This document shows, in pieces, positions 55-4,970 of a DNA stretch of 20,129 nucleotides. This stretch comes from a virus, in IMG/VR virus record IMGVR_UViG_3300031951_001528, positions 1-20,129 of that record; one strand, given 5' to 3'. Every line of letters starts with the position of its first letter. Position 1 is the stretch's first letter. The translations under genes were made by a program, and so were the position numbers. Under the pieces are notes generated by a model that saw only the letters and a program-made list of their open reading frames with translations, did no database searches and was not told the origin of the DNA.

Positions 55-1362
55 CTACCACTCCACACTATACTTCATCTGCCCCTGTGGGATATCATAC
101 AGGCGACGATAATTGATGGAGAGGTACCGCAAGCTATCTACTATGTGCGATGCCCAGTTATGCAATGGCTTTGTTGCAAAGCAGGCGTTAGCCTCGTCAT
201 ACTCTCTCTGGTACTCACGTAATGCTCTAATACCTAGATTGCATTCTGTTGTGTTTATCCTAACCTTAGGCAGCATATACCTTAGTGCCTCAATTCCATC
301 TTCTAGGCTAAGCTTTGGGGTGATTTGAAAGTTCCATCCTGCGCGTCTTGCTTGCATAAGTCTAGACTCTGCCTGTTCCCAACCTTGGTGTTTTTGGCTA
401 ATGTCATGTGGCCCAAAGTGATTTCCCCATTGACACCCCCATTGCTCTTTAAGCTTGTTTGCCCAGTCAAGAAAATGCTTAAGGCCGTAGCCAGTATCGT
501 GTAAGAGAGCAAGTAAATTGATGTAATTACCTTCAACCTGGAATAACCATCCTGCGGTCGCATCTGTTCCCCCTAAGTCCCATACGCTGTGTAATGGTAA
601 GTTTGGATTGGCTCGCAATGGTAATAAACGACCTTCAATATCCATGTCATGCATTTCACGTGTAAAATAAGCACCTTGGTTACCAGTTGTGAAATCACAG
701 TAGAACTCTTGCGCAATCATCTCATCAGACATGCCGCGCTTTTTAATGTCCTCAATGTCTTCCAAGGTAATGATAGGACTGCCGTCAGCTTTAGTAGTCT
801 TATCTATACCAAGATGCTCAATATGGTATTTTGGATTGTCCTTCACGGTCTCGAACAATTCCCATAAATGATTCTTGCCTCGTGGCGTGCTCTGTATAAT
901 CTCAATACCTTTGTTCTGTACAATAATTGGATTAAGATATTGCCGCGCATTAGGGTTGTGTAGTGCAAACTCAGAATAGATAATTGTAACTGGGTTGGTT
1001 CCAATTAAGCCAGTAAGGTTATTACTACCGGCTAACACTAAACGACTGCCATTGATTAATCTGATTTCCATTCTAGCGTCATTCTTGTATTCAATCAGGC
1101 ACTCGGGAATGTTGCTTAAAAAAGGCTTTCCATCAAAATCCATACCAGACCAAATAACGCTTCTGGCCTGTTGCAGTAGAGGAAATAAATAAACATGCGT
1201 TCCAACCCTCTGTAAAGCTCTTAGAATCCACATTTGAAGACAAGCAATATCTTTTCCTGCCCTGCGATGGATAACCGCTAAAATATGCTTGCCTTCGTTT
1301 ACAGCTTTAAACATTCTTTCTTGGTGGGGAAATGGGACGATTGAGGGCAGCCTAATATACAT
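55..1362 (-). CDS. terL: Terminase large subunit (DNA packaging ATPase/nuclease)
   Basis: The product (435 aa) is the packaging motor: an N-terminal ATPase drives DNA into the prohead and a C-terminal RNase H-like nuclease cuts the concatemer. Seen in the sequence: a Walker A of the phage form IHRRAGKD (residues 31-38), a Walker B-like TIIYSE (126-131) with the catalytic Glu, and a coupling motif QSTPRG (157-162). Nuclease acidic residues are D262 (SVWDLGG), D320 (GPHDIS) and D409 (HIVDSLRY). The HRRAGKD plus QRVG...QAR layout resembles terminases of BPP-1/BcepC6B-type phages more than T7 gp19; that kinship is from memory, not a search. The ATG overlaps the stop of the VRR-NUC gene by one base (TAATG), with AGGA 8 nt upstream. 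The stop is TAG; the frame stays open for the 18 codons beyond it to the window edge. No small terminase gene is recognisable next to it. Confidence 0.95.
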   Translation of the reverse strand: MYIRLPSIVPFPHQERMFKAVNEGKHILAVIHRRAGKDIACLQMWILRALQRVGTHVYLFPLLQQARSVIWSGMDFDGKPFLSNIPECLIEYKNDARMEIRLINGSRLVLAGSNNLTGLIGTNPVTIIYSEFALHNPNARQYLNPIIVQNKGIEIIQSTPRGKNHLWELFETVKDNPKYHIEHLGIDKTTKADGSPIITLEDIEDIKKRGMSDEMIAQEFYCDFTTGNQGAYFTREMHDMDIEGRLLPLRANPNLPLHSVWDLGGTDATAGWLFQVEGNYINLLALLHDTGYGLKHFLDWANKLKEQWGCQWGNHFGPHDISQKHQGWEQAESRLMQARRAGWNFQITPKLSLEDGIEALRYMLPKVRINTTECNLGIRALREYQREYDEANACFATKPLHNWASHIVDSLRYLSINYRRLYDIPQGQMKYSVEW

Positions 1363-1772
1363 TAAACAGTCCTCATGTAGGCATCGATGATTGCAATCCC
1401 CAAATCAGTACCAATTGCCCACTCAGCCATATAACCTTTTGATTTCATTTGGTTGATAAAAGCTTGTTGTCTAGCTAAATGTTCTTTCTGTGCTGCGGTT
1501 GGTTTCCAACCATCTTTTTTCACCTCGATAAATAAGCCGGGATACTTAGATGTTGGGTACGCAAAAAATAAGTCACTGGCACCTGGACGCAATCCAAGTC
1601 TTGGTAAAATCTTATTTGTTGAGCGTGACCGTTGCCCCTCATTATGTATTTTTATTACACACTCAGCTAGTTCTGGATAACGTAACCTGCAATAATCCAG
1701 TATTGCCATCTGCGTTTTGTCTTCTGGCTTAAGGTGAAACTTTTTGGTTGTACTCTTTGCTCGCAATTGCAC
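1362..1772 (-). CDS. VRR-NUC domain endonuclease
   Basis: This is a small (136 aa) stand-alone VRR-NUC nuclease of the PD-(D/E)XK superfamily. Members are commonly found in phages and act on branched DNA or other DNA structures. Seen: HNEG at residues 43-46, RPGASDLFF (62-70) with the metal-binding Asp67, and FIEVK (81-85) with Glu83 and Lys85 of the E-x-K core. A helix carrying WKPTAAQ follows. I chose a GTG start at 1772 because AAGGA lies 8 nt upstream; the open frame extends to a TTG at 1808 with no ribosome binding site. The first 44 nt overlap the end of the DUF1353 gene in another frame, and the stop overlaps the terL start by one base. A likely role, inferred from coupling to terL, is trimming or resolving replicating DNA before packaging. 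Confidence 0.88.
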   Translation of the reverse strand: MQLRAKSTTKKFHLKPEDKTQMAILDYCRLRYPELAECVIKIHNEGQRSRSTNKILPRLGLRPGASDLFFAYPTSKYPGLFIEVKKDGWKPTAAQKEHLARQQAFINQMKSKGYMAEWAIGTDLGIAIIDAYMRTV

Positions 1773-2208
1773 AATGATTATCCTTGTTAAAATGACTACT
1801 CCCGGCAATACGAACTGCCAGCCAATACAGGTAAGATTTAACAGGATTCACTAAATTGTCAATTAGAGATGAGTAAAATATGCTATCAATTTTCTGTCTG
1901 CTTAAATTGTTTGGGCAGGTATAAAGATAATCGTGCAATATTGAAGGCGCTATTGTTTTCATATCAAAAGGTGATTCAACAGACCAAAACAACTTTGGTA
2001 TTGATGCAAAATCCGTAATGAAGCCCTTTGGAATAATAACAGACTTATCGTCAATATCAGCTATTAAATTTTGGTTTAATTGAAAAACGCCATCGTTTAT
2101 AGGTGTAACCCTTACAACTCCTACAAAGTTGACGTTTTCGTTTGGAGAACATGTACTAAGAAAACTAGCGCAAATGATAAGTCCAGCAAGAATAAAGGAA
2201 CGTTTCAA
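1729..2208 (-). CDS. DUF1353 family protein, putative lipoprotein
   Basis: The product (159 aa from the chosen start) carries the DUF1353 signature: IPKGFITDFASIP (residues 59-71), then APSILHDYLYTCP (87-99) with the conserved HDxLY. The family is common in phages and its function is unknown. The first 20 residues read as a signal peptide: KR, a hydrophobic run, then LSTC (17-20), close to a lipobox although Thr at -1 is unusual. I chose a TTG start at 2208, with GGGGG six nt upstream, because it gives a clean MKR... signal peptide. An alternative TTG at 2229 adds seven residues and has a poorer setting. The start codon overlaps the stop of a 16-codon ORF (TTGA). If lipidated, it would sit in the inner or outer membrane, so a lysis-related role or superinfection effect is possible but unproven. 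Confidence 0.75.
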   Translation of the reverse strand: MKRSFILAGLIICASFLSTCSPNENVNFVGVVRVTPINDGVFQLNQNLIADIDDKSVIIPKGFITDFASIPKLFWSVESPFDMKTIAPSILHDYLYTCPNNLSRQKIDSIFYSSLIDNLVNPVKSYLYWLAVRIAGSSHFNKDNHCAIASKEYNQKVSP

Positions 2209-2255
2209 AAAATACCCCCAGTAAAACAAGGAGCTGAAAAACCAGGGGTAGGCAT
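2205..2255 (-). CDS. Possible 16-aa leader peptide ahead of the DUF1353 gene
   Basis: A 16-codon ORF reads MPTPGFSAPCFTGGIF and stops with TGA overlapping the TTG start of the DUF1353 gene (TTGA). There is no good Shine-Dalgarno sequence before its ATG, so it may simply be chance. What makes it worth recording is that an arm of a 6-bp inverted repeat lies in its codons and the other arm covers the GGGGG ribosome binding site of the next gene. Translation of this ORF could therefore control access to that site. This is inference only. Confidence 0.2.
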   Translation of the reverse strand: MPTPGFSAPCFTGGIF

Positions 2256-2591: not shown

Positions 2592-2750
2592 TTATTTTTT
2601 TCTGGCTACTCTAATATTATCAATTAAATTTGGCCATCGCCTGCCCGCTTTCTTAGCCATGGCTTTCGCTTTGGTCTTTTGCTTAGGCGTTAGCTTCTTT
2701 GGCCTGCCTAAACCTTTTGGTCTTGGCTTGTCCCATATCGCTTTTTTCAT
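2592..2750 (-). CDS. Small basic protein (52 aa), unknown
   Basis: The product begins MKKAIWDKPRPKGLGRPKKL and ends in VARKK. The ATG follows the TAA of the DUF6321 gene directly (TAAATG), so it is probably translated by coupling or re-initiation; there is no clear separate Shine-Dalgarno sequence. About 19 of 52 residues are Lys or Arg. The N-terminal PRPKGLGRPKK stretch resembles an AT-hook-like GRPKK core (R-P-K around Gly), which suggests nucleic-acid binding, though this is composition rather than a proven domain. It is the last gene of the basic-protein cassette, and the terminator begins 2 nt after its stop. Confidence 0.7.
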   Translation of the reverse strand: MKKAIWDKPRPKGLGRPKKLTPKQKTKAKAMAKKAGRRWPNLIDNIRVARKK

Positions 2751-3014
2751 TTAGCAATCCCATTTTTTCAATGCTAGAGCTTTTCTTGTTGGTCGACCTT
2801 TGGCATCTGTCATCGGTCCTTTGACTCCAGACATTCTAGCACAAAAACTTTTTCTGCGTGCAGCAGCTTTAGGAGATTTTTTTGCTTGCTCACGTGATAC
2901 TGGTGCTTGTAAATTAGATCCAGTTAAACGGTTTATCCGCTTACGACCACTAGCAGACAAACCGCCTTTTGGGTTCTTATCACTTTTTCTTAGGCTTACG
3001 TTTTTTCTTGGCAT
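2751..3014 (-). CDS. DUF6321-type small phage protein (87 aa)
   Basis: The sequence pattern is that of a small protein seen in many phage genomes (DUF6321, recalled from memory): [13 protein letters not shown] (residues 17-29), TGSNLQAPV (31-39), [18 protein letters not shown] (50-67), and a C-terminal ALALKKWDC. The function is unknown. I set the start at ATG 3014 (MPRKNVS), with AGGA 8 nt upstream; an upstream in-frame codon at 3047 would add 11 residues unlike the family. The first 35 nt overlap the 3' end of the preceding 51-aa gene in another frame. It is strongly basic, with Cys58 and a C-terminal Cys87. Confidence 0.85.
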
Positions 3015-3135
3015 TTGATTTTCCTGCTGATGACAAACTAGCTGCAATCGCTTGCTTCTGAGGGTATCCCTCTTTCATCATCTTGCGAATATTGCTGCTA
3101 ATTGTTTTTTGGCTTGAGCCTTTTTTGAGTGGCAT
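2980..3135 (-). CDS. DUF6496-like small phage protein (51 aa)
   Basis: This gene is short and easily missed. The product begins [20 protein letters not shown], followed by [19 protein letters not shown] and a Lys/Arg-rich tail ending KPKKK. It matches the common phage micro-family (DUF6496-like, from memory) with the K-G-x-S-x-K-x-I-S-x-N-I ... G-x-P-Q-K-Q-A-(V/I)-A pattern. The ATG overlaps the TAA of the upstream gene by one base (TAATG), with GAGAGGA about 6 nt upstream. The TGA lies 35 nt inside the DUF6321 gene. The YPQKQAIA segment may be a short helical oligomerisation or binding motif, but no function is known. Confidence 0.8.
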
Positions 3136-3356
3136 TATTTTCCTCTCTTTTTCATAGCTTTTTTCATGCCTTTTGATTCATCACGTCTAGCTTTTTTCTC
3201 CATACCAACTTCGCCATAAGCTGTACCAATAGCACGCTTCTTAGAATAGCCAGCTTTCTCCATTACTTTGACATTCTGTTTCATGCCTTTTTTAGTTGCA
3301 GCGGCTTTACCTTTAACCAACATCCCTTTTTTCATTTCACGCTTCACCATTTTCAT
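3135..3356 (-). CDS. Small Lys-rich protein (73 aa), unknown
   Basis: The protein begins [20 protein letters not shown] and ends KKAMKKRGK. Its middle, [20 protein letters not shown] (residues 31-50), resembles the [13 protein letters not shown] helix of the next gene, which suggests the two are distant relatives produced by duplication. Lys plus Arg make up well over a third of the residues, and Met is also frequent. The start ATG 3356 sits 1 nt after the TAA of the upstream gene, with AAAGGA 8 nt upstream; a second in-frame ATG two codons on is also usable. I recognise no named domain. Confidence 0.75.
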
Positions 3357-3357
3357 G

Positions 3358-3561
3358 TTATTTTCCTTTACGTTTTGCTGAAATTTTTTTCAAAGTCATA
3401 GCCAATCTTGCTTGACGTGCAGTGGTTTTATTACTAGATTTAGCAGCTTTTTTTAATTTTGTCATTGGTATATTTTTTTCTACCGGCACACCTAGTTTTT
3501 TACTAAGCGCTCCGGGGCGTTTGATAGCCCCTTTAATCCAGTTGGTTTTGGACTTTTTCAT
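3358..3561 (-). CDS. Small basic phage protein with NWIKGAIK...GALSKKLGV motif (67 aa)
   Basis: The N-terminal half, NWIKGAIKRPGALSKKLGVP (residues 7-26), followed by IPMTKLKKAAKSSNK and ARQARLAMTLKK, is a pattern I recognise from small conserved hypothetical proteins in many phage structural regions, often near capsid or fibre genes. No function is established. It is the first of five small basic genes following the second fibre. AAGGGT overlaps the end of the fibre gene and lies 7 nt before the ATG, so expression should follow the virion genes. The basic charge would suit binding to DNA or a negatively charged capsid lining; this is inference. Confidence 0.8.
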   Translation of the reverse strand: MKKSKTNWIKGAIKRPGALSKKLGVPVEKNIPMTKLKKAAKSSNKTTARQARLAMTLKKISAKRKGK

Positions 3562-3569
3562 ATTTACCC

Positions 3570-4970
3570 TTAAAAATAATATTCTGTGATAATAATTACG
3601 CCAGAGCCACCTGCCCCACCAGTTGCAGACCCTGCCCCAGCTGTCCCACCAGCCCCTACTGCGTAAGAATAAGTTGCAGCAGGAGAGGAAATTATAAATT
3701 GAACTTGCTCGCCTCCTCCACCGCCCCCCGCCGCAGAATTATCAGATCCAGCAGCACCAGCACCACCACCGCCTTGATCCATTCCAGGAAGACCGTTAAC
3801 GTCAGCGGTTCCCTGAAACCAAGCATTTCCACCTGATAAAATCGAACCGCCTCCAGGGCCTTGTGATGTCATGCCTATAGAAGTAATACCTATGCCTGAA
3901 CCTCCACTTGCACCTGCAACACGAAATACTTGCGTGCCAGTCCCAGATGCTCCACCACTGCCGCCAGCTCCTGGGCCTGAGGGATTATTTGGGCCATTTG
4001 TAGCTATTGCACCAGTCCCGCCTATAGCCGTCCAAGAGCCAAAACTTGTTGTGCCTCCATTTCCTCCAGCGCCTGCTCCTACACGAACACCACCACCGCC
4101 ACCGCCTCCGCCACACATCAAAATGTTCAAAGATTTAACGTTAGCAGGAACAGTATAAGTACCTGAGCCACTTGTGTATATTGTTATAGTAGGAGCCGAG
4201 GCAGCAGGAGTTTGGAAAGTTGGTAGTGCGCCAGCACCGTTACTTGTTAAAACTTGGCCTGCGGTTCCAACACTAGCCACTGATTGTTGTGCGCCAGTTG
4301 ATGTAGTCCCGCCACAAATCACTGAATAGGCTGTTGCTGTAGTTCTACCTGAACCTCCCGAACCAACAGGCAATGCATTTGCAAGGGTTGTAACACCAGC
4401 ATTACTAATGCTTAAAGCTGTAACAGGAATCACTGCTCCATTAGGCGTAACCAATAATTCTAGTTTACCTGGAGCTGAGCCATCAGCCAAAGTTCCAGTA
4501 CTATCAGCACTAAAACGAATTTGACCAAAAATACCGTAGTAACTGTTTAACCAACCTGTGGCGTACATGCTGTAAAGAGGCATGTTTGCAGTAACAGTTG
4601 CATGAGCCGAAGTATTAGAATTACTTCTAGCTGCGATTTGTAATGGTTCTTGCGTAGTTGAATGTTTGTGAATTGTCACCATTGCAGGCGCAGTATTGCC
4701 AATATCGTTGACTCTGAATCTGGAATTAAATGCAATGCCATCAATTAGGATATTGCCCACTTCGAGACCTGGGTCTCCAACATCAACATGACCTGTTCCA
4801 TTTGGCTCTAAATATAAATTGCCGTTAGTTGTAACAGTGCTAATTGTGTCCGTGTTAATGTTAATATCATTAATTGTTACATTAGTCATAGTCGGAGCGG
4901 TATCACCAACAAACTTCCCTGTGCCAGTTTGGCCTGCTAGACTTGTATTAATACTATTTTGCGTCGTCAT
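3570..4970 (-). CDS. Second tail fibre/adhesin with C-terminal polyglycine domain
   Basis: The product (466 aa) has three parts. Residues 25-70 contain an NGNLYLEPNGTGHVDVGD element, also present in the main fibre (NGNINLTPDGTGDLVLDG), typical of trimeric beta-structured fibre shafts. Residues 200-260 carry SGGSGRTT and GTAGQVLTSNGAGALPTFQ motifs common in phage tail fibres. From about 262 the sequence TYTVPANVKSLNILMCG leads into a glycine-rich domain (286-458) with GGGGGGGG, several GGGG runs, YSYAVGAGGTAG, and the closing IIITEYYF. This is the Gly-rich adhesin-type domain (PF21722-like from memory), which may fold as stacked polyglycine-II helices with variable receptor-binding loops. The start has AAGGCG 8 nt upstream. 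A 58-nt gap separates it from the main fibre gene, without a clear promoter or terminator. It probably forms the distal tip or a second host-recognition fibre. Confidence 0.85.
   Translation of the reverse strand: MTTQNSINTSLAGQTGTGKFVGDTAPTMTNVTINDININTDTISTVTTNGNLYLEPNGTGHVDVGDPGLEVGNILIDGIAFNSRFRVNDIGNTAPAMVTIHKHSTTQEPLQIAARSNSNTSAHATVTANMPLYSMYATGWLNSYYGIFGQIRFSADSTGTLADGSAPGKLELLVTPNGAVIPVTALSISNAGVTTLANALPVGSGGSGRTTATAYSVICGGTTSTGAQQSVASVGTAGQVLTSNGAGALPTFQTPAASAPTITIYTSGSGTYTVPANVKSLNILMCGGGGGGGGVRVGAGAGGNGGTTSFGSWTAIGGTGAIATNGPNNPSGPGAGGSGGASGTGTQVFRVAGASGGSGIGITSIGMTSQGPGGGSILSGGNAWFQGTADVNGLPGMDQGGGGAGAAGSDNSAAGGGGGGEQVQFIISSPAATYSYAVGAGGTAGAGSATGGAGGSGVIIITEYYF

Follow-up and report, generated by a model that had tools for sequence, protein, structure and literature searches.

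Five very small, Lys- and Arg-rich proteins are encoded one after another behind the last fibre gene of a T7-like podovirus, and the locus raises the question of what such a set of proteins does there and whether it acts as a unit. The window, by which we mean the whole 20,129-base stretch analysed, is a fragment holding part of this phage, with its genes in the order major head, tail proteins, internal virion proteins, fibres, cassette, DUF1353, VRR-type nuclease and large terminase. The cassette occupies 2592-3561 on the minus strand as five contiguous ORFs. On balance, and from sequence comparison, we lean towards the five being small basic head proteins, here called beads, that most likely bind DNA and serve as minor components of the head or as assembly factors. 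The features discussed are the following.

3570-4970, minus strand: putative fibre/adhesin with a Gly-rich C-terminal region, directly upstream in the operon of the cassette
3358-3561, minus strand: ORF1, 67 aa, predicted four-helix small basic protein, remote SSV1 VP2 relative, phrog_20603-like
3135-3356, minus strand: ORF2, 73 aa, paralogue of ORF3 carrying a 12-letter motif
2980-3135, minus strand: ORF3, 51 aa, phrog_2423 family
2751-3014, minus strand: ORF4, 87 aa, DUF6321, with co-varying cysteines C58 and C87
2592-2750, minus strand: ORF5, 52 aa, phrog_34011 family
2589-2574, minus strand: intrinsic terminator, ATCCCC-ATTT-GGGGAT followed by a T run, directly past the ORF5 stop
1362-2229, minus strand: DUF1353 protein and VRR-type nuclease genes, which bound the cassette slot on the terminase side
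55-1362, minus strand: large terminase subunit (phrog_2, 6.7e-22), which marks the same slot in related phages

Five small basic genes at the end of a transcription unit

The coordinates, Lys plus Arg content and isoelectric points agree with the preliminary description of five consecutive small basic genes joined by gaps of 0-1 nt or by overlaps. ORF1 begins 8 nt after the fibre ORF, and the junctions from ORF1 to ORF5 are a 1-nt gap, a 1-nt overlap, a 35-nt overlap and a 0-nt gap, taking the ATG start of ORF4 (an upstream TTG start would give 98 aa in place of 87). From ORF1 to ORF5, Lys plus Arg make up 33, 36, 31, 29 and 38% of residues, the pI values are 12.0, 10.6, 11.1, 11.8 and 12.0, and the net charges are +21, +20, +15, +21 and +18. 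A Lys plus Arg content of at least 25% is reached by only one of the 74 other window ORFs of 40-110 aa, for which the median is 10%.

Codon comparison with close relatives gave dN/dS values of 0.01-0.12 for orthologous pairs of cassette ORFs (ORF1 0.05-0.12, ORF2 0.01-0.07, ORF3 orthologues 0.02-0.12, ORF5 0.08-0.09), with higher values for two replaced genes, the partly swapped ORF4 of locus L018 (up to 0.19) and the swapped ORF3 of locus L057 (up to 0.30). Purifying selection thus acts on all five ORFs, and the genes are real. A purine-rich stretch precedes the start codons of ORF1 to ORF4, and the start of ORF5 directly at the ORF4 stop suggests translational coupling.

The terminator past ORF5 is palindromic and is terminator-like on the plus strand as well. 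It closes the transcription unit, and in that sense the placement of the cassette at the end of the virion operon stands; it is the end of that unit only, because beyond it the same strand carries the DUF1353, VRR-nuclease and terminase genes. Since a PHROG search with the 3570-4970 gene returned no match, its reading as a fibre rests on position and composition. This last fibre gene is 93-94% identical to its match in loci L004 and L007-L010, whose terminase is only about 64% and whose other fibre about 52% identical to those of the window, so that this tip/adhesin gene may have been exchanged recently among these phages. On the other side of the cassette, the DUF1353 protein (1729-2229; phrog_1158, 'tail assembly chaperone') has an N-terminal lipoprotein-like signal sequence ending in Cys.

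ORF1 and the virion protein VP2 of SSV1

ORF1 matches phrog_20603 weakly (9e-6) and scores 12.8 bits against the Pfam family PF25632 (Fusello_VP2_Capsid), under the gathering cut-off of 27, and we therefore call it a VP2 relative and not a member of PF25632. PF25632 is matched by 25 of 68 ORF1-family members, one of which (L340) exceeds the cut-off, and no other Pfam family is matched. In the reverse direction the ORF1 profile finds SSV1 VP2 at an E-value of 3e-5, the best of 2000 shuffled VP2 sequences reaching 0.05, and an hhalign comparison of the ORF1 family with SSV1 VP2 gave a probability of 94% and an E-value of 1e-7 over 36 columns. The similarity is concentrated in a W-[IV]-x-x-A-I-K-R-P-G core. 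These comparisons indicate that the ORF1 family is remotely homologous to SSV1 VP2. The AlphaFold2 model of ORF1 has four helices (pLDDT 80.6), and ORF1-type domains also lie inside larger proteins of 159-967 aa. A scan of 84,980 genomes of bacteria and archaea confirmed the ORF1 profile on 18 contigs, and the titles of nearly all of these mark them as metagenome-assembled genomes.

SSV1 VP2 is reported to be a DNA-binding virion protein (PMC5748691), and a review describes VP2 homologues in unrelated archaeal and bacterial viruses and reports that VP2 of SSV1 is dispensable (PMC9608457). Like ORF1, VP2 is small and very basic (35% Lys plus Arg, net charge +22) and shares the common core, and its gene likewise lies at the end of a structural transcript, directly before the mapped terminator. 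They differ in that VP2 is a single gene of a spindle-shaped archaeal virus, whereas ORF1 comes from a tailed phage and stands in a tandem row of five beads.

ORF4 is a DUF6321 protein

The assignment of one gene to DUF6321 is borne out by Pfam: ORF4 matches PF19846 at 1.3e-25 (90.3 bits against a cut-off of 28.5) over positions 2-72 of the 72-column profile. The conserved core in ORF4 comprises GGL, FCARM and a C-terminal WxC, which are invariant or nearly invariant alignment columns. Among distinct, related sequences, 69 have both C58 and C87, seven have neither and none has only one, and because the cysteines are present or absent together the pair is likely to act jointly, in a disulfide or in metal binding, even though shared ancestry among the sequences inflates the statistical significance of this pattern. 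The variants that lack both include those of L020, L045, L235 and L237 (SFLARM ... AWGA), and two extra cysteines occur in the DUF6321 proteins of L018 and of Microcystis phages.

The AlphaFold2 model of ORF4 is compact and largely helical (pLDDT 88.6). Sequence searches of the PDB with the ORF1- and ORF4-family alignments gave no match, and Foldseek/VIA searches of the PDB with the two predicted models gave nothing useful; these missing matches are not evidence of a new fold. A BFVD search returned mostly proteins of the same families, together with DUF6321 on proteins named AAA-domain and Ferritin/DPS.

In T4-like cyanophages DUF6321 is the C-terminal domain of T4-GC119 proteins, mosaics of 233-517 aa, and in this they are unlike ORF4. 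One of them, ORF29 of S-SCSM1 (517 aa), is labelled 'virion protein', and 45 virion proteins of that phage were detected by mass spectrometry (PMC9602691). The T4-GC119 gene of P-HM1 bears the note 'similar to Synechococcus phage S-SM1 protein'. In the stretch of the P-HM1 record covered, gp3, gp13-15, gp18-21 and gp23 bear the same note, and gp16, gp17, gp22, uvsY, uvsW, gp46, gp47 and gp55 do not. Since S-SM1 is a phage with a measured virion proteome (PMC3037559), the note probably marks detected virion proteins. The mass-spectrometric support in these relatives concerns long fused proteins and not stand-alone beads. Passages located in the cryo-EM paper on P-SCSP1u make no mention of its DUF6321 protein, and the DUF6321 gene of S-CREM2 could not be matched to an entry in that phage's virion proteome table.

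T4-GC119-type proteins (L199:13537-15024, L201:3705-5258, L202:4320-5603, L229:3153-3863) are strings of small recurring modules whose order varies: KDACYHKVKSRYxVWPSAYASGALVKCRK, CWxGYEKKG, LHKWFKGSKSKDGKxGW and DUF6321. They resemble beads in one polypeptide.

In the autographiviruses among the cyanophages and pelagiphages DUF6321 is, like ORF4, a stand-alone gene; it lies beside capsid or scaffold genes and is followed by a basic partner of about 50 aa. In L191:5234-5383, L192:4232-4387 and L198:4234-4410 this partner, directly after DUF6321, reads GLYANIHAKRKRIxAGSGEKMRKxGxKGAPT; it has no significant Pfam match and is another bead family.

ORF2, ORF3 and ORF5

ORF3 matches phrog_2423 over its full length (9e-15, residues 1-47 on 1-47 of 52) and ORF5 matches phrog_34011 likewise (1.7e-16, residues 2-52 on 4-52 of 55). 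ORF2 has no match to curated families; its profile and that of ORF3 match the same 198 ORFs, from which we take the two to be paralogous, and an ORF3 homologue lies within 1.5 kb of ORF2 in 21 of 35 ORF2 loci. The ORF5 family has 54 loci in viral contigs, and an ORF5-type domain forms the C-terminus of a 178-aa protein. A match of ORF5 to HTH_32 (E 0.0025) was below the cut-off and was set aside. DUF6496, which had been suggested for a member of the set, was dropped, the PF20106 profile having no match in the window, ORF3 included, at E<=10. An NCBIfam search gave nothing convincing for any of the five ORFs. Searches of phage records by tblastn found no match for ORF1, ORF2 or ORF5; as the IMG/VR scans did find homologues of all three, the low-complexity filter may explain these misses.

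The ORF3-type domain also begins larger proteins. Residues 1-41 of the DUF2213 head-maturation protease of Obolenskvirus AP22 are an ORF3-type module (E 2.3e-19), with DUF2213 at 72-240. ORF3 itself has no DUF2213 match and corresponds only to the N-terminal module of the protease, carrying a Lys-rich tail where the protease has its catalytic domain. The AP22 module is not basic, and 3 of 72 clusters of ORF3 homologues have a net charge of +3 or less, strong positive charge being otherwise near-universal; charge alone therefore cannot be the conserved property. Several proteins of unknown function have the same N-terminus. In L244:5980-6657, L257, L259 and L274 it is joined to an uncharacterised domain that contains the motifs GRTDHLPMHVPSGSYVIPAD and GGEYVI and closes with LPGPKKD.

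Clustering and exchange of the genes

Profiles were built from 345 loci, which were grouped by nucleotide similarity into 174 clusters; shuffled decoys gave no match. The loci are the best matches for each query, so the co-occurrence counts that follow are not rates over all phages. An ORF2/3-type gene lies within 1.5 kb of DUF6321 in 16 of 34 clusters and ORF5 in 7 of 34, and DUF6321 lies within 1.5 kb of ORF3 in 10 of 49, against 0-1 co-occurrences in control windows 2.5-5.5 kb away. With ORF1 as anchor co-occurrence is weak (ORF2/3 in 2 of 56 clusters). Other small basic ORFs are enriched near every family (0.27-1.04 against 0.04-0.11 per kb, p 0.03 to 8e-5), near DUF6321 at 0.84 against 0.06 per kb. 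A phage record, MW202825, has both an ORF3 gene and a DUF6321 gene. Each of the five genes thus belongs to a micro-family found on contigs of unrelated tailed phages, where the families adjoin one another, in other orders, far more often than expected by chance. The preliminary description would have been refuted had the families never co-occurred elsewhere, and it passes this check.

The closest relatives keep the order 1-2-3-4-5 or 2-3-4-5 with single beads replaced: in L018 the ORF2 slot holds an ORF3-type gene and ORF4 has four cysteines, in L057 the ORF4 protein is identical and the adjoining ORF3 64% identical, and L059 is without ORF4 and ORF5. In the more distant L004 and L006 the order is 4-5-3, and in relatives with about 65% identical terminases the slot is taken by different tiny basic genes, or no such gene reaches threshold. 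The slot upstream of the terminase in L098, L104 and L105 holds other tiny basic families, with the patterns KLTxxxRNxLPxxAFAxPxxRxYPxxDxSHAANAKAR and MKGxxKSPVKxSKTxVxDRxQYAPNYDAKxQTG. All five in the order 1-2-3-4-5 turned up in just a single nucleotide cluster, made up of close relatives. The earlier view of the set as one functional unit is therefore borne out in part: the families co-occur, but subsets and other orders are the rule.

Such variation in order and content, down to relatives with different tiny genes or none reaching threshold, is what would be expected if the cassette were a late-operon hotspot filled with unrelated accessory micro-genes that have no common task. We consider this improbable, because the same families meet again outside this slot in unrelated phages and four of the five (ORF1, ORF3, ORF4 and ORF5) occur as modules of larger proteins.

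Variable, exchangeable content would equally suit accessory genes whose products stay out of the virion and act late in infection on the host's nucleic acids, ribosomes or nucleoid, and a nucleoid or RNA effector could plausibly be a small basic protein. Action on host nucleic acids had been proposed for this set; no evidence for it was found, and no named host-takeover family was matched in Pfam, PHROGs or NCBIfam. The place of the genes in a late structural unit, the fusions to virion and head proteins and the head-gene neighbours in unrelated phages also speak against such effectors, which we hold to be still less probable than a hotspot.

The neighbours point to the head. In a plain tally, the large gene closest to a bead is most often one for a portal, large terminase, major head or head-tail adaptor protein. 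ORF3 homologues in annotated phages sit between portal/head-morphogenesis and capsid genes, and in pelagiphage HTVC031P DUF6321 lies between scaffold and capsid genes. Both placements would also be expected of assembly helpers, an electrostatic glue of beads that bind the acidic proteins of capsid, tail and fibre or the scaffold or portal during prohead assembly and need no contact with DNA. The gp12-like, fibre and capsid proteins of the window are indeed acidic (pI 4.7, 4.9 and 4.9), an ORF3-type module forms the N-terminus of a maturation protease, and ORF3 homologues without net charge exist. Set against this, VP2, the nearest characterised relative of ORF1, is reported to bind DNA, and nearly all family members keep a strong positive charge, so that we regard assembly without DNA contact as rather unlikely.

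Proposed function

The reading of the cassette as DNA-binding head beads draws on purifying selection, operon position, clustering, fusions to virion and head proteins, head-gene neighbours and the relation of ORF1 to VP2. The reported dispensability of VP2, the indirect nature of the P-HM1 note, the near-uncharged ORF3 homologues and the lack of a useful match among solved structures count against it. On this reading the beads, produced alongside the structural proteins, would lodge in the head or on its surface, would most likely bind DNA, whether packaged or incoming, and would act as minor head or assembly proteins; we infer virion presence in this phage, DNA binding and one task common to all five. 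As the same beads occur alone or fused to larger proteins, the fused ones may serve as docking modules that place their partner in the head. The virion-associated DNA-binding or assembly role first proposed for the set gains support through relatives, namely the DUF6321 protein of S-SCSM1, VP2, the AP22 protease and the head-gene neighbours.

Full neutralisation of the DNA charge is implausible. The five proteins together carry +95, and even at 100 copies of each only about 12% of the charge of a 40-kb genome would be balanced. A chlorovirus paper states that evidence is lacking for any large share of basic proteins in the charge neutralisation of phage dsDNA; it describes, in PBCV-1, basic modules that are joined to other domains and occur attached to the virion DNA (PMC3281028). 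This basic adaptor domain and the other virion DNA-binding proteins of PBCV-1 are like the beads in principle, with no sequence relation claimed, and differ in being long proteins of a eukaryotic virus.

The beads would resemble the internal head proteins of T4, which are small and basic and are packaged in the head with the DNA, but which carry a cleaved capsid-targeting sequence.

A limited literature search turned up no account of the cassette, none of beads being exchanged between mini-genes and domains of virion proteins, and no paper naming DUF6321 or DUF6496. Single pieces relate to known things (VP2, DUF6321 and the phrog families), so that 'undescribed' applies to the cassette within that search and not to the ORF1 family, given its tie to VP2.

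Tryptic proteomics easily overlooks small Lys/Arg-rich proteins of this kind. Tailed phages are usually thought to pack their DNA with cations, polyamines and little protein, and the beads would be a testable exception. If the reading is true, it would give functions to the large unknown families DUF6321, phrog_2423, phrog_34011 and phrog_20603, and would provide natural tags for bringing proteins into phage heads. More tentatively, and with doubt prevailing, tailed phages and archaeal spindle-shaped viruses may share a pool of interchangeable basic beads that bind the genome inside the head and carry cargo proteins into the virion. Encoded either by mini-genes in tandem or as tags attached to larger proteins, such beads would form a modular, virus-encoded system that is chromatin-like and docks cargo.
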